IMG/VR virus record: IMGVR_UViG_3300024302_000020
Span: 1-40,115 of that record
Length of the DNA stretch: 40,115 nucleotides
Direction: 5' to 3' (one strand)
Source of the DNA: a virus
Shown one piece after another: positions 696-27,225 of this stretch. Each line of letters begins with the position of its first letter. Positions within the stretch are counted from its first letter, which is position 1. The notes beneath the pieces are model-generated. The model ran no database searches and was not told where the DNA came from. It worked only from the letters and a program-made list of their open reading frames with translations. A program made the translations under genes and the position numbers.

Positions 696-2871
696 CAGAT
701 TATGATGAACAAGAAAGAAGCAGCAGTACAGCAGCTAATCGAAGAAGAAGAGATGGCTAGCAATGATGTTGCTCCTATGAGCGATGATGAGTTGGTTTCT
801 GCCTGCACGCAAGAGATTGCCCAAGGAATAGGAAGCGATAACGCATCAAATAACGCGGAAGTATCTTTGCCGTTGAGCTACTACAATGCTCGATTACCAG
901 GCATGAGCGCAAGGAAAGCAAGAGACAAAGACAGTAGTGCTTATGTCAGTGATGATTTAAGAGCAGCAGTCGAAGCAACAATGGCGGAGATTATGCCGTT
1001 GTTCACGACTAATAATCTGGGGGTATTTGATCCAGACGGTGAGGATGATATTGAACGTGCAGAAGTAGAAACAGCACTCACAAACTATTTGCTCTTTAAT
1101 GAGTACAACGGCTATTTGATACTGCAAGAACTAGTTAAAGATGTGTTGCTTAACCGAAATTGTACTGCCAAGGTCTATTGGGATGAGCGGGCACAAGTTA
1201 CATACGAAACGCTCGATAATGTACCAGGTCTGGCGATTCAGCAGGTACTTCAACCGCAACAAGATAACGAACGCGTTGAGATTGTTGAGCAGTACGTTGA
1301 TGGAGAAGAGCAAACCCCCATACAGCCTATCATGGATCCAATGACTGGGTTACCAGCCGGCATCAGCGGTGGCGAAGTAATAGAGACTTTCAGTCTTAAG
1401 ATTAAGCGAACCACACTGGTCGGCAAGCCTGTGATTGAAAGTGTAGCACCGGAAAATATTATCGTTTGTGGGGATCACACCAGCCCAATTCTTTTTGATG
1501 CTAGATTTGTCGCACATGAGAAAGTAGAAACAGCCTCGTCACTTATTCAGCAGGGCTTTGACCCCGCTATCGTTGAGAGCTTGCCCGAATATAACCAAGG
1601 CCAAGAGTCATACTCTAGGACGATGGACTATGCAGACGATTACGGAAGTGTTGATTCAAGTACAAAGCTGATTCAAGTCTATGAGTGCTATACAGACATA
1701 GATTATGATGGGGATGGCATAGCGGAAAGGCGTAAAGTTGTCATAGGCGGGGATAATACTCTATTAAGTAATGAAGAATGGGACCGCGTCCCACTTGTAG
1801 GCGGTGTTGGCACGATCATGCCGCACGCTTATCAGGGTGTTAGTCTGTTTGATAGACTAAGAGAAATACAAGATGTAAAAACCCCATTGATCCGGGCTAT
1901 CGTTGATAGTACAAAATTAAGTGCTAATCCGCGGATCGGAGTAGTCACCGGTGAAGCTAACCTCGATGATATATTAACTTCAAGCACTGGCGGTATCGTC
2001 AGAGTGACTAACCCCGGGGCAGCGTTCCAGTTTCCTAATCCTGAAGTGGGGCAGTCGAGCTACTCATTACTTGGGCTGATGGACGAGCAGCGCAGGGAGC
2101 GTGGCGGTAGTGCGATTAATACCGCAACCTCAGCACAAAGCATTAGCGGTGATACTGCGCACGGCATAGAGCGCGTGATGTCAGCGATGGAGCTAGCTAA
2201 TTCTTTGGTTGCCCGAACGATTGGGGAAACAGTAGTAAAAGGTATTTTCATTACGTTGCACTCGATTATCAAAGCTAACAGAAAGGACCCAATTAACGCA
2301 AGAATAGGCGGCAAATGGGTCAACTCAACACCTTCCGAGTGGAAGACTAGACCCAACGTACGTATACAAATGGGCAGCTCGTATGCACAGAACCAAAGAC
2401 AAGCCGCGATCATGCGTGAGATTGTTCAGACTCAAGGCATGCTGGCGCAGACGGGTTCGGTATTGTTCTCAGAAGAAAAACTATATGATGCTTTAACTGA
2501 TGGAGCTAGATTTGCAGGCATTAACTCACCAGAACGGTACTATGTCGATGTGACATCACCAGAAGGACAGCAAGCTAAGCAGCAGCAAGATCAGCAGAAG
2601 CAGCAAGAAAAGCAGAAGATGGACGAGGCTCAGCAAACGATGATGCAGGGTCAACAGATGCTTGCTCAGGCTGAGATGCTCAAAGGCCAAGCGGATATGC
2701 AGGCGAATCAGGTAAAAGTACAGAATGAGAAGTTGAAGGCAGAAATACAAGGCTTGAAAGAGCTGGCTAACGCAAACCAGAAGTCAGCAGAATTAGAATT
2801 CGATTACGCGAAGTTATATCTAGATAACCAACTCAAGAAAGAAGAAAACGAAAGCAAGCAGGCTTTGGAGC
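1..2871 (+). repeat. Terminase/portal segment, allele A (repeated at 37263-40115)
   Basis: This stretch is repeated in the same orientation at the right end of the window. Bases 1-52 match 37263-37314 exactly. Bases 2745-2871 match 39989-40115 exactly, which is 127 bases. Between them the copies diverge, most strongly in the middle of the portal gene, and copy B is a net 18 bases shorter. Both copies keep their reading frames open. Confidence 0.95.
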
Positions 2872-2939
2872 TGACGAAGCTAGAGCTGGAGGCTGGGCGT
2901 GATCTTAATGCAGAGATGGAAAGTAATGAAATCGTTTGA
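702..2939 (+). CDS. Portal protein, P22-like (allele A)
   Basis: This 745-residue protein would form the dodecameric portal ring through which TerL pumps DNA and onto which the tail assembles. Position directly after TerL, length near the P22 portal (about 725 residues) and blocks such as YNARLPG, SARKARD and YVSDDLR support the call. The last 150 residues are rich in Gln, Glu and Lys and predict a long helical coiled coil, like the barrel of P22-type portals. Two adjacent ATG codons (702, 705) could serve as start. The 3' end overlaps the methyltransferase start. A diverged second copy begins at 37964. Confidence 0.88.
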   Translation: MMNKKEAAVQQLIEEEEMASNDVAPMSDDELVSACTQEIAQGIGSDNASNNAEVSLPLSYYNARLPGMSARKARDKDSSAYVSDDLRAAVEATMAEIMPLFTTNNLGVFDPDGEDDIERAEVETALTNYLLFNEYNGYLILQELVKDVLLNRNCTAKVYWDERAQVTYETLDNVPGLAIQQVLQPQQDNERVEIVEQYVDGEEQTPIQPIMDPMTGLPAGISGGEVIETFSLKIKRTTLVGKPVIESVAPENIIVCGDHTSPILFDARFVAHEKVETASSLIQQGFDPAIVESLPEYNQGQESYSRTMDYADDYGSVDSSTKLIQVYECYTDIDYDGDGIAERRKVVIGGDNTLLSNEEWDRVPLVGGVGTIMPHAYQGVSLFDRLREIQDVKTPLIRAIVDSTKLSANPRIGVVTGEANLDDILTSSTGGIVRVTNPGAAFQFPNPEVGQSSYSLLGLMDEQRRERGGSAINTATSAQSISGDTAHGIERVMSAMELANSLVARTIGETVVKGIFITLHSIIKANRKDPINARIGGKWVNSTPSEWKTRPNVRIQMGSSYAQNQRQAAIMREIVQTQGMLAQTGSVLFSEEKLYDALTDGARFAGINSPERYYVDVTSPEGQQAKQQQDQQKQQEKQKMDEAQQTMMQGQQMLAQAEMLKGQADMQANQVKVQNEKLKAEIQGLKELANANQKSAELEFDYAKLYLDNQLKKEENESKQALELTKLELEAGRDLNAEMESNEIV

Positions 2940-3543
2940 GGAAAAGAATGATGCAGTTTTAAAGCTTTTCAGTGACGCTATAAAATATAGTGCTGCTGGA
3001 GATGTTTTGCTTGAGGCTTTCGATCATGTCTCTTTGGATGGTTTTCATTTAGAGATGGGAGTCTTTACTGGTGGAACGATTAATTTTATAGCCCATCATA
3101 ACCCTGATAAGAAAATATATGGATTTGATTCTTTCGAGGGCTTGCCTGAAGATTGGGAAAGAGATGATACAGATATTTTTAAGAGAGGGGTGTTTGCTAC
3201 TGATTATATTCCGGAAGTAGCATCAAATGTAGTTATAAAGGAGGGCTTATTCCATGATTCATTGCCTGAATTTAAAAAGGAAATATTGAAAGACGCACCC
3301 ATAGCATTTCTTCATATTGATTGCGATCTTTACGCTTCTACTAAAACCGTATTTGATATTCTATCTGATAATTTAGTATCGGGGACGGTCATCGTTTTTG
3401 ATGAGCTTTATAATTACCCAGGCTTTGATAAGCATGAAATAAAAGCCTTCACAGAATTCTTGGACGAAAAAAAGATGTTAGTGAAATTTCTAGCTTACAA
3501 CAGTGAGCATGAGCAGGTTGCGGTAAAACTAAAGGGTGTATAA
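2926..3543 (+). CDS. TylF/MycF-like SAM-dependent methyltransferase
   Basis: The 205-residue product resembles class I SAM-dependent O-methyltransferases of the TylF/macrocin family, which methylate sugar hydroxyls. The SAM-binding loop is EMGVFTGG (residues 43-50), followed by GFDSFEGLP (66-74). Candidate metal ligands are in HIDCDL (D132, D134) and FDEL (D159, E160). The ATG at 2926 is preferred, with GGA just upstream; an in-frame ATG at 2899 would lengthen the overlap with the portal gene. This is not a standard morphogenesis gene. With the GT1 enzyme at 17724 it suggests sugar tailoring of a virion or cell-surface glycan, which is inference. Confidence 0.75.
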   Translation: MKSFEEKNDAVLKLFSDAIKYSAAGDVLLEAFDHVSLDGFHLEMGVFTGGTINFIAHHNPDKKIYGFDSFEGLPEDWERDDTDIFKRGVFATDYIPEVASNVVIKEGLFHDSLPEFKKEILKDAPIAFLHIDCDLYASTKTVFDILSDNLVSGTVIVFDELYNYPGFDKHEIKAFTEFLDEKKMLVKFLAYNSEHEQVAVKLKGV

Positions 3544-4626
3544 ATGGGACTTTTTGATGAGATAAAAAAACACGGATCAGAGACCTACGACACATTATCT
3601 GAGGGGCTGATGGGTGATCGCGCTCGTGGATTGTTGGATATGTTTGCGGGAAATATCAAAAGTGGATTGCCTATGCTAGATAAAGACCCGATGGATTGGG
3701 AAGCTGCCGATGTACTGAATGTTGCAATGGGTGGGACGATAGCAGGACGCATGGCAAAGACAGCCAACCCAGACATGCTCAAGCGTGCTGATGAGATGAA
3801 AGCAGCAGGCTACTCACGCGATGAGATATGGAAAACCACTGGCGAAGAGTTTAATCAGCCTGCTTTTTTTGACGGTGATGGCAATCTTAAATGGGAGATC
3901 GATGATAGTGCCTACAAGTACACGCCTGAGAATTTAGATAAAGAATCATTTAGTGGGATGAGTTATAGAAAAGGGACTGTTGCTAAAAGCACAGACCATC
4001 CAGCAATGCTAGATGCTTATCCTGATTTAAAAGATGTGCAATCCATAGATTATCCGTTTAGATCAAAAGCAAGATTGTCTGGACAATACACGCCAGAAGA
4101 TGCGAAATGGAAAACTCCAGCATCGGTTACTTTGTGGGATGGGGGTTCTAGCACTAAGAGGTCAACAAACCTACATGAATTAAATCATGGGATACAGGAT
4201 ATTGAAAACCTTCCATTGGGGGGAAGCCAAAAGCAGTTTACCACGGTAGATAATGCTGCTGATATAGACATGCTATCGGACGCAAATATTCTAAATAAAA
4301 TAACATCTAAAATGAAGGGGGATATAGATCAGGCTAAGGTTACTTTTAAGTCTATGCTGGGAAGAGACCCCGCTTTAGGTGCAGAAAGTATTGTACTAGG
4401 TGGGGAAAGCTCGGAGAGTATTATTAAACGTAGGGAAGCATTAAAATTAGCAAGTAAAACCCCATATGAAAAATACCAGCGACTGGCCGGTGAAGCTGAT
4501 GCAAGAGCCGTGGAAGCTCGCATGGATATGACTATGCCAGAGCGGATAGCTCGACCTTTCCCGAAAGATTATGATGTACCAGAGAGCGAGTTTATCTATA
4601 ACTATAGGAAAGGATTGCTTGAATGA
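3544..4626 (+). CDS. Phage HExxH metallopeptidase-like protein
   Basis: This 360-residue protein contains HELNH at 211-215, an HExxH zinc motif, and a later RLAGEADAR block where E317 could be the third ligand, as in gluzincin peptidases. The region ADEMKAAGYSRDEIW to WEIDDSA resembles domains found in very large phage polyvalent proteins, where an HExxH block also precedes a conserved AGExxAR element. Here the domain stands alone between the methyltransferase and scaffold genes. A role in prohead maturation or as an injected protein is possible but unproven. The start directly abuts the previous stop (TAAATG), and the stop overlaps the next ATG. Confidence 0.6.
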   Translation: MGLFDEIKKHGSETYDTLSEGLMGDRARGLLDMFAGNIKSGLPMLDKDPMDWEAADVLNVAMGGTIAGRMAKTANPDMLKRADEMKAAGYSRDEIWKTTGEEFNQPAFFDGDGNLKWEIDDSAYKYTPENLDKESFSGMSYRKGTVAKSTDHPAMLDAYPDLKDVQSIDYPFRSKARLSGQYTPEDAKWKTPASVTLWDGGSSTKRSTNLHELNHGIQDIENLPLGGSQKQFTTVDNAADIDMLSDANILNKITSKMKGDIDQAKVTFKSMLGRDPALGAESIVLGGESSESIIKRREALKLASKTPYEKYQRLAGEADARAVEARMDMTMPERIARPFPKDYDVPESEFIYNYRKGLLE

Positions 4627-4802
4627 GTAAAGGTAGTTTACGCAGGCCAACTAATGAGAAAGAGTATGGTGCAAACTGGGATTTAATTTTTAACAACAAT
4701 CTGGAGACAGAAAAAGATGAGAAGCGAAGTAAGCAAAGAGAGATTATTGACATTCTCGAAGATGGTTTTATTAAACCACGAAGCAGAAATACAAGCGATT
4801 AA
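4623..4802 (+). CDS. Small conserved phage protein, 59 aa
   Basis: The ATG overlaps the previous gene's stop (ATGA at 4623-4626) and the frame reads 59 residues, beginning MSKGSLRRPTNEKEYGANWD and ending RNTSD. Small basic proteins with this RRPTxxExxxxNWDxIF pattern recur in phage genomes, which supports a real gene. Function is unknown. Its 3' third is shared with the next gene, which starts at 4717 in another frame. Confidence 0.65.
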   Translation: MSKGSLRRPTNEKEYGANWDLIFNNNLETEKDEKRSKQREIIDILEDGFIKPRSRNTSD

Positions 4803-4956
4803 TGACCGCATAGATTTCAAGCTGCTGAAAAGGTTTCAGGCGGGTGATGAGAAGAAGCGGGAAGTCATAGCGGCATTGATGAACAACAGAGATATTCTTT
4901 TCGCTGAGATGCGAGAGATTATTGCAGAGTCTGTGCAGGCTAACATCAATGAATGA
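4717..4956 (+). CDS. Hypothetical helical protein, 79 aa
   Basis: The product is charged and predicted mostly helical, with no recognised family. GGAG lies 10 bases before the ATG at 4717, and the start sits inside the preceding small gene, giving an 86-base overlap in a different frame. A later in-frame ATG at 4762 would shorten the overlap. The stop overlaps the start of the DUF6378-like gene, so these genes look translationally coupled. Confidence 0.55.
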   Translation: MRSEVSKERLLTFSKMVLLNHEAEIQAINDRIDFKLLKRFQAGDEKKREVIAALMNNRDILFAEMREIIAESVQANINE

Positions 4957-5224
4957 TATAAACCTTGATGTGATACTGAAAGCCAGAGGAAACACCTATG
5001 GTGAATTCAGGGATAATGCTCGTATAAGCCAAGGCATTAAGTCAGCGATGAGAGTAGGGAACTGGGACACGCTCCCCAACGTACAGCGCGAAGCTTTAGA
5101 GATGATAGCTCACAAGATGGCTCGTATTTTAGCGGGTGATCCCGCATACGCTGATAACATGGTTGACATAGCGGGATATGCGACATTAGTAGCAGAAGAA
5201 ATTAATTATTTGGAGACAATATAA
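4949..5224 (+). CDS. DUF6378-like phage protein
   Basis: From the ATG at 4949 this encodes 91 residues. The pattern ILKARGNTYGEF, then NWDTLPxxQREALEMIAHKMARILAGDP, then DNMVDIAGYA matches the DUF6378 family of small phage proteins, whose role is unknown. The start overlaps the previous stop, and its own stop (TAA at 5222-5224) overlaps the scaffold ATG. An upstream in-frame ATG at 4922 is less likely because it lies deeper in the preceding gene. Confidence 0.65.
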   Translation: MNDINLDVILKARGNTYGEFRDNARISQGIKSAMRVGNWDTLPNVQREALEMIAHKMARILAGDPAYADNMVDIAGYATLVAEEINYLETI

Positions 5225-24261: not shown

Positions 24262-24612
24262 TTATTTTTTATTTAATGATAATATTTGTTCTTTTGCTGC
24301 TTCAAAACCTTTACAGACTAGGACTGTATAACCCACATTTTTTAAATAAGAGACGATTGTTTTCTGATCTGGTGATAGTGATCCACCTTTTGTTCTTTTC
24401 ATCTCAACCCAAACTCTCCACTCAGGTATAAACAGATCAGGGATACCTTTCACTGTGCCTTCCACTTTTAATGCCATAGCCGTTGATTTACTCCGTTTTC
24501 CTCCATTGGGTATGGAATGGATTAAAACCCCTGGATGAGCGCGTCTGAACCATTGCACAAACATCGCTTGTTCCCAAGATTCTGTGGGTATTTTTTCTGG
24601 TTTTTTTATCAT
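24262..24612 (-). CDS. VRR-NUC domain nuclease
   Basis: This 116-residue protein spans a VRR-NUC domain, a PD-(D/E)xK superfamily nuclease. It shows the early helix (ESWEQAMFVQWF), HSIPNGGKRSKSTAMALKVEG, and the catalytic block GIPDLF followed by WVEMKR, in which D and E-x-K are the expected active-site residues. A final SPDQK and GYTVLVCKG complete the family pattern. Such phage enzymes likely resolve branched DNA during replication or recombination. It ends the helicase operon. Confidence 0.8.
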   Translation of the reverse strand: MIKKPEKIPTESWEQAMFVQWFRRAHPGVLIHSIPNGGKRSKSTAMALKVEGTVKGIPDLFIPEWRVWVEMKRTKGGSLSPDQKTIVSYLKNVGYTVLVCKGFEAAKEQILSLNKK

Positions 24613-24620
24613 AATTTCTC

Positions 24621-24812
24621 CTAAAATGGTATGTCATCAAAATAGCTCTGGCAAGAATTCACCGTTGCTGCAAATCCTTCGGGTGGTGTGGATTTAAAAT
24701 GCGTACAGAATGAATCGTCCTTTTCGAAATAAGAACAAGTATGACAGCACTTAGGCATCCGTACTGATAGTGAATCCCAATATTTTGTGACAAAATCTGG
24801 TTCTTTATACAT
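24621..24812 (-). CDS. Small Cys-rich protein, 63 aa
   Basis: The product has PKCCHTCSYFEKDDSFCTHFKS and a later NSCQSYF, giving a CxxC-type metal knuckle with a C-terminal Cys. Similar small zinc proteins are common in phage replication clusters. The start overlaps the helicase stop by 8 bases, and the stop lies 8 bases before the VRR-NUC start. Confidence 0.6.
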   Translation of the reverse strand: MYKEPDFVTKYWDSLSVRMPKCCHTCSYFEKDDSFCTHFKSTPPEGFAATVNSCQSYFDDIPF

Positions 24813-27225
24813 CGCTCCAACTCCTAGTTAATACCTTATTAAATCGTCCTTCCCTTATAAATTCTATCGATGATGGATGTTGTCCTAATTCTTGCAAGTC
24901 TATTGCAATATAATCAAGTGATGAAAAATCATCGTTATACGTGCCAGATTTAAAAAAAATTTCTTGAAGTAATTGCCTCGCTTTTGAGCCGGCATAACCA
25001 TCATGGGTAACGCATAAATACTCAGTGACTGGGGGATCAGATAGCGCACCATAATAAGTGACTGCTAACATCTCCTTGCCGGATGCTTTTGATATATGCT
25101 TCCTCCATATCCAACTGGTGACCTCTATCTCTGTACCTTCTATCCCCATGATGTCGTCATCTCTGAGTGAAAGCTTTGGCTTTTCTGGTAATGGAAATGG
25201 CTCTCCACATGCAGGGCAGACGGTCACTGATATATAGACAATCTCCCCACATTCGTCACATATTTTTACCGGTGCTTCACCCGTGCCTTCACCTTTTTTA
25301 TTCGGTGGGGTAATATTGGTTATCGGCCCATGCGCTTCAACCACGCCTGCAAAATCCAGAACTAAGCAATGGTCTGTGTGCGATTTAGGACGCATTCCCC
25401 TGCCTGCCATTTGAACATACAGGCTGGCTGACATTGTGGGCCTCAGCATAGCGATAAGATCGATGTCTGGGTAATCAAAGCCTGTCGTTAAAACATTTGC
25501 ATTCGTTAACGCTTGTATCTTACCTGTTTTGAAATCCTCAATGATTTGCGCTCTTTCTTTCTGCTTTGTCTCACCGGTAATACATTCAGCAATAACGCCA
25601 TTATCAATCAATATATCTCTTATATGGAATGCGTGTTCCACACCAGAGCAGAAAAACAACCAAGCTTTCCTATCTTGTGCAAGTTTAATCACTTCTTGCA
25701 CTACCTCCTGATTAGTCTGGTCATTATCAACTGCTGCATGAAGTTCAGACTCTATAAATTCACCCCCCCTCTTATGTACTTGGCTAGTATCGAGCTTGAT
25801 ACTTGTTATTTTTGACCTCAGTGGCGATAAAAAACCTTGTTCTATCAATTGTTCAATAGAGACGGGATTAATCAATTCATCAAATAATGCAGGCTCGTCA
25901 GTAATTAATCCGTGCCCCAATCTGTAAGGCGTGGCCGTCAATCCAATCACTCTCAATAATGGGTTAATAGCGAGCAACTCGCTCAACAGCAATCTATATC
26001 CGCCCTCATTTTTATGGCTGACAAGATGGCAATTATGAACAGCTACATCATTAGCGAAGTAAGAAGGATGTCCACTGACTTGAATGTTGAAAACAAGTGT
26101 AGGGCTTTCTCGTTTCTCACACGAAACACTGACCAACCTAATTTTGTTAGAAATTCTGTTTTCTTTAAATCTTTTTCTTGAGAAAGAATAGTTCCGTGAC
26201 TTCCACCATCCAATTCTATTGCTATCATAAGCTTTTGATTCCCTATATCTACTTTGTAACAATTCGGATATATTCCATTTCGATGCCCTGCATGTGTCTT
26301 TATTGGAAACTCCGCAGTCCAACCATCTCCCAATGCGTGAAGTAATGCTAATTGTGGCAAAGATAGCAATTGCCCGTTCCCTCCACGATTTATAGGCTTG
26401 TGTTTCAATTCCTTTAGCCTCTTGCTTATCTTTTGTCTTGCTTGTGATGTCAATACAGTCGGATGTGATCTCTTTGCACACTTTATTGAGCAAAAATTTT
26501 GCTTGTTCCAGAGAGGTTCTGGTTGAGCTGATTTTATCTTCCCATCTACAATCTTTATCCAAGGTTTGAACTTGTTTCCACAAAGACCGCATACTTTCGA
26601 TGCTGAATAAATCCTCTCCGTTCTCCAAGGCTTTAGCTTCAACCCATCCTCTGTTTGTGAAGAATTTATGGTTTTCTGTACATTGGATTGTTTTTCCATT
26701 ACTTAACTCCAGTTTATATAAATCATTTGTGGTTTTGCATGAAGTTGCCTCAACAACTCCAACTCCGCATTGATTATATACTATGTCGCCACATCTCACC
26801 TTGTCAATATCAATATATCCATTAGGAGTAGATATTTGTGTTCCTTTTACAAAACACTCATCTATTATCACCAGGTCAATATGCCCTATCTGTTCTGCTT
26901 TATTTCTAACAGATTGAATGCCTGCAAAAGTGATTGGCTCTCCTAGCTGCTTCATTCTGAGACTGGATGAGTAAATCCCCAAGGGCGCACCTGGCCAGTG
27001 CTGCATCATTTTCTCTGCATTTTGAGATATTAATTCCTTTACATGTGTCAGCATTAATACACGGGTTTCGGGCCAACTGTGTAGTGCATCTTTACATAGA
27101 GCGGCAACTATATGGCTTTTGCCTGATCCTGTAGGTAACACCAAGCAGGGATTGCCCTTATTTTTTTCGTTAAACCATTTATACAAGTCATCAATGGCAC
27201 GTTGTTGATATTCTCTTAATTTCAT
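24805..27225 (-). CDS. SF2 DEAH-type helicase, interrupted by an intein
   Basis: The 806-residue precursor would splice to a 531-residue superfamily 2 helicase. Walker A is PTGSGKS (31-37). The Walker B/DEAH box is DE|CH, split between E123 and C399 by a 275-residue intein (124-398). Motif III is TATP (429-432), and motif VI is QMAGRGMRP (about 604-612). A Cys4 zinc knuckle (CDECG/CPACG, about 655-672) follows. The start overlaps the nuclease gene stop (ATGA), and GGAGG precedes it by 7 bases. Place among Sak4, DUF669 and exonuclease genes points to phage replication/recombination. Without splicing, the ATPase centre would be disrupted. Confidence 0.9.
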   Translation of the reverse strand: MKLREYQQRAIDDLYKWFNEKNKGNPCLVLPTGSGKSHIVAALCKDALHSWPETRVLMLTHVKELISQNAEKMMQHWPGAPLGIYSSSLRMKQLGEPITFAGIQSVRNKAEQIGHIDLVIIDECFVKGTQISTPNGYIDIDKVRCGDIVYNQCGVGVVEATSCKTTNDLYKLELSNGKTIQCTENHKFFTNRGWVEAKALENGEDLFSIESMRSLWKQVQTLDKDCRWEDKISSTRTSLEQAKFLLNKVCKEITSDCIDITSKTKDKQEAKGIETQAYKSWRERAIAIFATISITSRIGRWLDCGVSNKDTCRASKWNISELLQSRYRESKAYDSNRIGWWKSRNYSFSRKRFKENRISNKIRLVSVSCEKRESPTLVFNIQVSGHPSYFANDVAVHNCHLVSHKNEGGYRLLLSELLAINPLLRVIGLTATPYRLGHGLITDEPALFDELINPVSIEQLIEQGFLSPLRSKITSIKLDTSQVHKRGGEFIESELHAAVDNDQTNQEVVQEVIKLAQDRKAWLFFCSGVEHAFHIRDILIDNGVIAECITGETKQKERAQIIEDFKTGKIQALTNANVLTTGFDYPDIDLIAMLRPTMSASLYVQMAGRGMRPKSHTDHCLVLDFAGVVEAHGPITNITPPNKKGEGTGEAPVKICDECGEIVYISVTVCPACGEPFPLPEKPKLSLRDDDIMGIEGTEIEVTSWIWRKHISKASGKEMLAVTYYGALSDPPVTEYLCVTHDGYAGSKARQLLQEIFFKSGTYNDDFSSLDYIAIDLQELGQHPSSIEFIREGRFNKVLTRSWSDV
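26032..26856 (-). mobile_element. Class 1 mini-intein in the helicase DEAH box
   Basis: The 825-bp insert encodes 275 residues. Splicing residues are all present: Cys1 (block A, CFVKGTQISTPNGYIDIDKV), block B TENH with the catalytic H63, block F LVFNIQVSGHPSYFANDVA, and block G ending His274-Asn275 followed by extein Cys. It lies between E and C of the helicase DECH motif, a conserved nucleotide-binding site of the kind inteins favour. The frame has no recognisable LAGLIDADG or HNH nuclease between blocks B and F. The linker (about residues 85-245) looks like the by-product of another gene read in the +1 frame. Confidence 0.92.
26043..26699 (-). CDS. Vsr/DUF559-like homing endonuclease overprinted inside the intein
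   Basis: A 218-codon gene lies wholly within the intein DNA, on the same strand, in the +1 frame. GGAG stands 7 bases before its ATG, in codons that encode intein block B (ELSNGKT). Residues 37-74 hold CxxC and CxxxC (C37, C40, C70, C74), a zinc finger-like region. Residues 148-196 carry YKVDIG, IAIELDGGSH and KDLKKTEFLTKLGWSVFRVRN, the strand-helix-strand pattern of Vsr-like/DUF559 nucleases in the PD-(D/E)xK superfamily. Candidate catalytic residues are D151, E162, D164, H168 and D177. It ends 11 bases before the intein end. Inferred role: cutting intein-free helicase alleles to drive homing. Confidence 0.82.
   Translation of the reverse strand: MEKQSNVQKTINSSQTEDGLKLKPWRTERIYSASKVCGLCGNKFKPWIKIVDGKIKSAQPEPLWNKQNFCSIKCAKRSHPTVLTSQARQKISKRLKELKHKPINRGGNGQLLSLPQLALLHALGDGWTAEFPIKTHAGHRNGIYPNCYKVDIGNQKLMIAIELDGGSHGTILSQEKDLKKTEFLTKLGWSVFRVRNEKALHLFSTFKSVDILLTSLMM

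Follow-up and report, generated by a model that had tools for sequence, protein, structure and literature searches.

Fractured genes, reportedly described by Dassa et al. in 2009 from phage and metagenomic helicases, are said to contain split inteins with a free-standing endonuclease between the halves, and I-Bth0305I was reportedly described from the nuclease family of these genes. I-Bth0305I is an intron-type homing enzyme and, to our knowledge, has not been described as overprinted on a coding frame. Out-of-frame HNH endonucleases have been found in phage DNA methylases (the ShiLan domain, Pacc40), and the translation of such nucleases was posed as a question (Arsenault et al. 2025, PMC11855218). 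Here we describe a helicase gene in a 40,115-nucleotide stretch of viral DNA (IMG/VR virus record IMGVR_UViG_3300024302_000020, positions 1 to 40,115; hereafter, the window). This gene hosts an intein whose coding sequence also holds, in its +1 frame, a putative endonuclease gene with a candidate start site of its own. The features on which the comparison depends are the following:

24805..27225, minus strand: helicase open reading frame (ORF), RadD/phrog_16-like superfamily 2, encoding an 806-aa precursor that hosts the intein
26032..26856, minus strand: intein of 275 aa, from Cys1 (CFVKGT) to a C-terminal His-Asn, then Cys+1, assigned by an Intein_splicing match and empty alleles
26572..26856, minus strand: N-terminal half of the Hint domain, intein residues 1-95, with blocks A and B, assigned by AlphaFold2 and Foldseek
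26032..26139, minus strand: C-terminal half of the Hint domain, intein residues 240-275, with blocks F and G, predicted local distance difference test (pLDDT) about 90, HPS and HN invariant
26149..26562, minus strand: overprinted intein linker, residues 99-236, mostly predicted to be disordered in the intein frame
26043..26699, minus strand: putative overprinted endonuclease gene, +1 frame of the helicase ORF, 218 codons (218 aa), assigned by DUF559 and fold matches
26478..26591, minus strand: Cys-rich CxxC...CxxxC region of the nested protein, with C37, C40, C70 and C74 all invariant or nearly so
26100..26258, minus strand: predicted catalytic core of the nested protein, residues 148-200, YKxD...ExDGxxH...D, assigned by invariant residues and structural alignment

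Like the fractured genes, this locus combines an intein with a nuclease that would be translated separately. In fractured genes, however, the intein and its host gene are divided into separate ORFs, whereas here the intein is contiguous within a single 806-codon ORF and the nuclease is overprinted on it. Canonical large LAGLIDADG inteins, such as those of mycobacteriophage large terminase subunits (TerL), likewise pair a Hint domain with an endonuclease whose coding sequence lies between blocks B and F (PMC5050341). Their nuclease is read in the same frame, forms part of the spliced-out polypeptide and cannot be made without the precursor; in the present intein the nuclease does not share the intein reading frame, being in the +1 frame. 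As with I-Bth0305I and other EDxHD homing endonucleases (PDB 3r3p; PMC3943268), the predicted enzyme is phage-borne and multi-domain, with a Vsr-like catalytic fold and the pattern D...ExD..H...D; unlike I-Bth0305I, it lies wholly within intein coding sequence and has a Cys-rich N-terminal region. Phage T4-type free-standing homing endonucleases stand beside their target gene, neither inside nor overlapping an intein. The likeness to ShiLan is that a homing-type endonuclease lies out of frame in an insertion open in the frame of the host gene, with a disjunct distribution (PMC11855218). ShiLan insertions have no splicing domain, an HNH nuclease, a GTG start and no ribosome-binding site (RBS) found by the authors (PMC11855218), whereas at the present locus the intein is complete, the nuclease is of the EDxHD type, and both a Shine-Dalgarno (SD) sequence and an ATG are conserved. 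Thus the out-of-frame endonuclease in an open insertion is shared with ShiLan, and in place of an HNH nuclease without a splicing domain there are DUF559 and Hint domains. No earlier description of an endonuclease overprinted on an intein was found in the open-access literature searched, so that this absence is not proof; the search on out-of-frame, nested or overlapping endonucleases in inteins returned only the ShiLan work and one genome announcement with a similar case.

The helicase ORF matches Pfam ResIII (3.5e-18), Helicase_C (5.2e-17) and PHROG 16 (6.9e-95), and it matches the NCBIfam RadD model at 6.6e-86, under the cut-off of that model. The intein interrupts helicase motif II at DE|CH and matches Pfam Intein_splicing at 5.6e-13, over the cut-off. 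Motifs of the class 1 Hint type are present (CFVKGT...CTENH...HPSYFANDVAVHN|C), and C1, T60, H63, H274 and N275 are invariant among 22 inteins, which covers the TxxH of block B and the C-terminal His-Asn. AlphaFold2 gave a pLDDT of about 85-94 for intein residues 1-90 and mostly <50 or <70 for linker residues 99-236, except for a helix near 111-127 (the structure-prediction rows are those without three named-phage rows). By Foldseek, the Hint model matched solved inteins with a best E of 1.2e-8 (2lwy), and the gp41-1 intein at 5.0e-7.

Of the 825 bases of the intein, 657 are double-coded, and the nested frame starts in block B and stops in block G. The nested protein matches Pfam DUF559 at 8.1e-8, over the cut-off, and DUF559 was matched in all 23 aligned relatives. 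Residues D151, E162, D164, H168 and D177, which make up the EDxHD catalytic set, are invariant in 26 sequences. VIA-align of the predicted structure gave Z scores of 9.2 for 3hrl, 8.7 for 3r3p (I-Bth0305I) and 8.3 for 1cw0 (Vsr), and a profile search of the PDB with the nuclease found 3hrl at 6e-10 and 3r3p at 0.014. The predicted Vsr-like fold is thus based on VIA Z scores of 8-9 and on profile searches. Judged by its sequence, the nested ORF appears to encode a Cys-rich Vsr-like (DUF559/EDxHD) endonuclease that would cut DNA, and the Cys-rich region is probably a zinc-binding DNA-recognition module.

On the minus strand, 5' to 3', the sequence around the nested start is TAT AAA CTG GAG TTA AGT AAT GGA AAA ACA, which reads Y K L E L S N G K T in the intein frame. 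Three elements are recognized there:

26707..26710, minus strand: predicted internal SD sequence GGAG of the nested gene, in the Leu-Glu codons CTG GAG, with the SD-forming codons kept in relatives
26703..26705, minus strand: TAA stop in the nested frame, two codons 5' of the ATG, barring frameshift entry from further upstream
26697..26699, minus strand: predicted start ATG of the nested gene, across AAT GGA (Asn-Gly)

The first-pass annotation had read GGAG-TTAAGTA-ATG within the intein codons, and this stands, with the seven-base spacer TTAAGTA at 26706-26700. It had also confined the whole signal to the codons for ELSNGKT, which is not so, since GGAG is made of the last base of the preceding Leu codon and the Glu codon GAG. 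Nor does the ATG lie in the Ser-Asn codons, as had been proposed: it takes its first two letters from positions 2-3 of the Asn codon and its G from position 1 of the Gly codon. SD pairing as strong as that at the nested ATG occurs at only 3 of the 45 out-of-frame ATGs of the helicase gene, one of which is the start of the next gene. GGAG-N7-ATG occurs four times in the window against 5.2 in shuffles, and the other three occurrences all coincide with listed ORF starts. The T-ending Asn codon at the start site has a chance probability of 0.76 at this locus. Predicted pairing at the nested RBS is -5.9 kcal/mol, which is ordinary for this phage, and that of the helicase's own RBS is stronger, at -10.2 kcal/mol; a lower dose of nuclease is plausible because the nested RBS is predicted to be the weaker.

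Because significance at the single locus was weak, family-wide tests were used. The test set comprised 36 non-redundant loci whose nested frame takes in the [N/D]G site of block B; these loci are kin by descent, and hence counts over them are not independent trials. An ATG is present at the homologous [N/D]G site in 36 of 36, which requires a T-ending Asn or Asp codon, and such codons were found in 44 of 46 motif loci against 21.9 expected from the codon usage of each gene. Mean SD pairing was -4.98 kcal/mol, compared with -2.90 +/- 0.32 in synonymous randomisations, none of which (0 of 2000) was as low. At the SD position the Glu codon was GAG in 15 of 16 cases (9.7 expected) and the Arg codon AGG in 9 of 11 (1.65 expected). 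The excess was localised, with z of -6.3 to -7.3 at shifts -1 to +2 and none beyond -3.7 at other shifts. Family-wide, the start signal goes far past what chance would give. Close same-site inteins without a nested ORF were sought as controls, and none was found; in an imperfect control, motif loci that start elsewhere, 8 of 10 codons were T-ending and there was no SD excess.

Where the nuclease starts elsewhere, an SD was also present in the clades inspected. Clamp-loader inteins have AAGGAGG-like, near-perfect SD sequences (-11.4, -12.3 and -8.7 kcal/mol), and the Vibrio/Pseudomonas (DEV) clade has GAGG in Asp-Glu-Val codons after block B (-6.3 to -6.9 kcal/mol). At the position matching the Vibrio/Pseudomonas start signal, the window carries GGAGAGG in intein codons (26613-26619, minus strand) without an in-frame ATG, possibly a relic or chance.

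Selection was examined in 61 moderately diverged pairs by what fraction of sites differs at each codon position (1/2/3). The N-extein gave fractions of.256/.142/.559. Mid-overlap, the values were.385/.183/.143, and amino-acid identity there was.771 for the nested frame versus.555 for the intein frame; where the overlap covers block B, the values were.270/.165/.298, which indicates constraint on both frames. The substitution pattern in the overlap is as expected with the nested frame under protein-level constraint. When one frame was preserved and the other shuffled, it was rare for both to stay open (513 and 33 of 29,500 draws). The proposal that translation starts independently inside the intein, yielding nuclease separately from helicase, is thus strongly supported at the sequence level by the conserved ATG, the SD-forming synonymous codons, the frame-specific substitutions and the upstream stops.

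The same arrangement recurs widely. A tblastn search of 50,697 phage records with the nested protein gave 40 matches, mostly within genes annotated as helicases or as larger P-loop/coiled proteins. All eight named phages examined (Vibrio phages 159E43-1b, 104E43.1, 24, K391, 1.088.O and 1.194.O, Pseudomonas phage MR14 and Corynebacterium phage phi673) carry the nuclease in +1 relative to the host ORF. A profile scan of IMG/VR found 326 relatives, of which 80 were fetched, and the IMG/VR counts cover these 80: in 77 the nuclease is the +1 frame of a longer ORF (76 fully contained, one cut by the contig end), the remaining three are not nested, and none is in frame. In bacterial genome contigs and metagenome-assembled genomes (MAGs), 21 of the 22 closest relatives found by the profile scan are nested in +1 and none is in frame; the nested cases include MAGs labelled Methylococcaceae, Microbacteriaceae, Cyanobacteria and Chloroflexi, together with the cultured planctomycete Roseiconus nitratireducens. 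Dual coding of the nuclease in the intein is conserved across many phages and bacterial contigs. The host genes are helicases and also clamp-loader-like AAA+ genes (loci L003-L005), which are interrupted after the matching DE of Walker B. In L003, a second intein is apparent at the P-loop (GSTG|C...N|CGKTT).

Five helicases (L093-L097) lack the intein exactly at GATGAG|TGCCA, and their identity is 89% over the C-extein (amino acids) and 90% over the N-extein (nucleotides); the intein-free L096 and the intein-bearing L002 share an IMG sample number. This pattern of empty alleles fits a homing element. The same nuclease family occurs in three forms, namely free-standing by a likely target, within a split intein, and overprinted in a contiguous intein. 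Free-standing homologues, which resemble the T4-type enzymes, lie directly 5' of, and slightly overlap, an intein-free DExH helicase at L120 (3276-5335), L073 (1531-3373) and L084 (3297-5064). L083 (2552-5032) is a true split form, in which the ORF with the N-terminal intein half ends at 3379, the nuclease (3276-4061) overlaps both halves, and the ORF with the C-terminal half covers 3941-5032; it bridges fractured genes and overprinted inteins. These four loci are the three IMG/VR relatives without nesting and one relative from the bacterial contigs. The tree gives no order for the three forms. In Salmonella phage S16, an intein splits the UvsW helicase (uvsW; L148, 1314-4040), and between the pieces lies an ORF, annotated as hypothetical, for a NUMOD3/TnsA-like endonuclease; this is a fractured gene in a T4-like phage.

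Taken together, we consider it likely, with a probability of roughly 0.85, that this is a mobile homing intein with dual coding, in which the endonuclease is overprinted and its translation begins from an internal RBS; homing itself is inferred, as are cleavage, splicing and a start at 26699. In frame 0 the helicase would be encoded, its DE|CH motif interrupted by an in-frame Hint intein; the Vsr-like (EDxHD) endonuclease would come from the +1 frame, over DNA that runs from the last part of block B through the linker into blocks F/G. Ribosomes would bind the internal GGAG and start at 26699 to give free nuclease, and the precursor would splice itself to yield active helicase. Helicase genes that lack the intein would then be cut by the nuclease at the DE|CH site, and during their repair the intein, together with the nuclease, would be copied into them. 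With a start site of its own, the nuclease need not follow precursor splicing in amount, and hence the decoupling of nuclease dose from splicing that the first-pass annotation had suggested would follow logically. Several observations weigh against this interpretation. At this locus alone the SD has a p of about 0.10 under synonymous codon randomisation, so that the RBS is not significant by itself, and predicted RNA pairing partly covers both the nested SD and the ATG. Kinship among the tested loci means that the randomisation counts overstate independence, and the SD is weak in a few loci of the clade (L042, L045, L071 and L076). Foldseek with the nuclease model gave no nuclease match at E <= 0.001.

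The nuclease could instead be a Vsr-like repair, recombination or defence enzyme that lies in the intein by happenstance and has no part in homing. DUF559 proteins do occur in many contexts, including free-standing forms without intein association (L129-L134). However, the whole close family is found in inteins, in a split intein or beside an intein-free helicase, the element is present or absent at one exact site, and the structure matches the homing enzyme I-Bth0305I; we therefore regard a non-homing role as improbable. A further proposal is that the nuclease has its own short transcript, made from a promoter inside the intein and using the same RBS. One candidate sequence lies on the correct strand:

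26780..26807, minus strand: promoter-like TTGACA-16-CATAGT, about 80 nucleotides 5' of the nested ATG, possible and not significant

Such matches occur at the chance rate (5 found versus 4.5 expected), and the helicase is in a same-strand run of genes with which it would be co-transcribed. An internal promoter, which we also consider unlikely, would supplement internal initiation and not replace it.

A +1 ribosomal frameshift from the helicase would produce a fusion of N-extein, N-terminal intein part and nuclease and not a free protein. Nesting in this nuclease family is always in +1, as such a shift would need. Frameshift entry is nevertheless disfavoured because stops in the nested frame sit just 5' of the ATG: two codons away here, and within four codons in 21 of the 36 loci, which leaves a tiny window for the shift. 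A conserved ATG and SD would also be unneeded, and there are three different clade-specific start places, each with an SD. On the strength of these stops and the conserved SD, frameshifting was judged very unlikely (no search for slippery sequences was made). The idea that the 218 codons stay open by chance, or are what is left of a dead gene, was rejected as practically negligible from the substitution pattern and the randomisation tests: although the 513 draws in which synonymous randomisation kept the frame open came from 36 of 59 loci, mostly GC-rich, 218 codons were reached in 0 of 500 randomisations at this locus, and the nested frame has a curated domain match, invariant catalytic residues and purifying selection.

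A second class was found in terminase inteins. In those of Rhodobacteraceae phage LS06-2018-MD07 and Tetrasphaera phage TJE1, an HNH nuclease lies in the +2 frame, with Pfam HNH_3 matches of 2.3e-13 and 2.8e-14, respectively. Two nested HNH loci are placed as follows:

L145, 1743-2255: nested HNH nuclease within a TerL ORF at 400-2448
L152, 2003-2911: nested HNH nuclease within a TerL ORF at 870-3056

Of 80 relatives fetched after a profile scan (L153-L232), 56 have the HNH ORF nested within a longer ORF in a different frame, and in none does it occupy a long frame of its own. The non-redundant nested cases number 42, of which 35 are in +2 and 7 in +1. The two host ORFs of this class examined in full both look like TerL with Hint motifs, and HNH_3 was matched in all five nested proteins tested. 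Differing fractions by codon position, from 17 pairs of which several are nearly identical, were.126/.221/.159 in the overlap and.190/.155/.378 in the extein, a flip predicted for a +2 frame. RBS enrichment in this class was weak overall (13 of 300 randomisations were as strong), with some single loci near-perfect. Overprinting seems to have arisen more than once, the terminase HNH case being apparently independent. We think it probable that phage inteins have repeatedly evolved overprinting as a general means of carrying a homing nuclease, often with an internal RBS: Vsr-like and in +1 in helicase and clamp-loader inteins, HNH and in +2 (sometimes +1) in terminase inteins. If this is true, some large inteins that seemingly lack an endonuclease hide one in another frame, made independently of splicing.

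Elsewhere in the window, a VRR-NUC domain protein is encoded downstream of the helicase on the same strand (24262-24612, minus strand), and portal, scaffold, terminase, primase and Sak4-like genes of a tailed phage are also present.

With this arrangement, self-splicing and site-specific DNA cutting, which are unrelated folded functions, would share one stretch of DNA read in two frames. The arrangement would explain how such inteins spread without a nuclease fused to the splicing domain. For inteins, it offers an answer to the question that hidden HNH insertions left as to how an out-of-frame nuclease is translated (PMC11855218). Annotation by the longest ORF would miss whole groups of such nucleases. 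These inteins would also provide a natural test bed for the evolution of overlapping genes, because a phage that loses the intein frame presumably pays a cost, whereas loss of the nuclease frame would affect only mobility.

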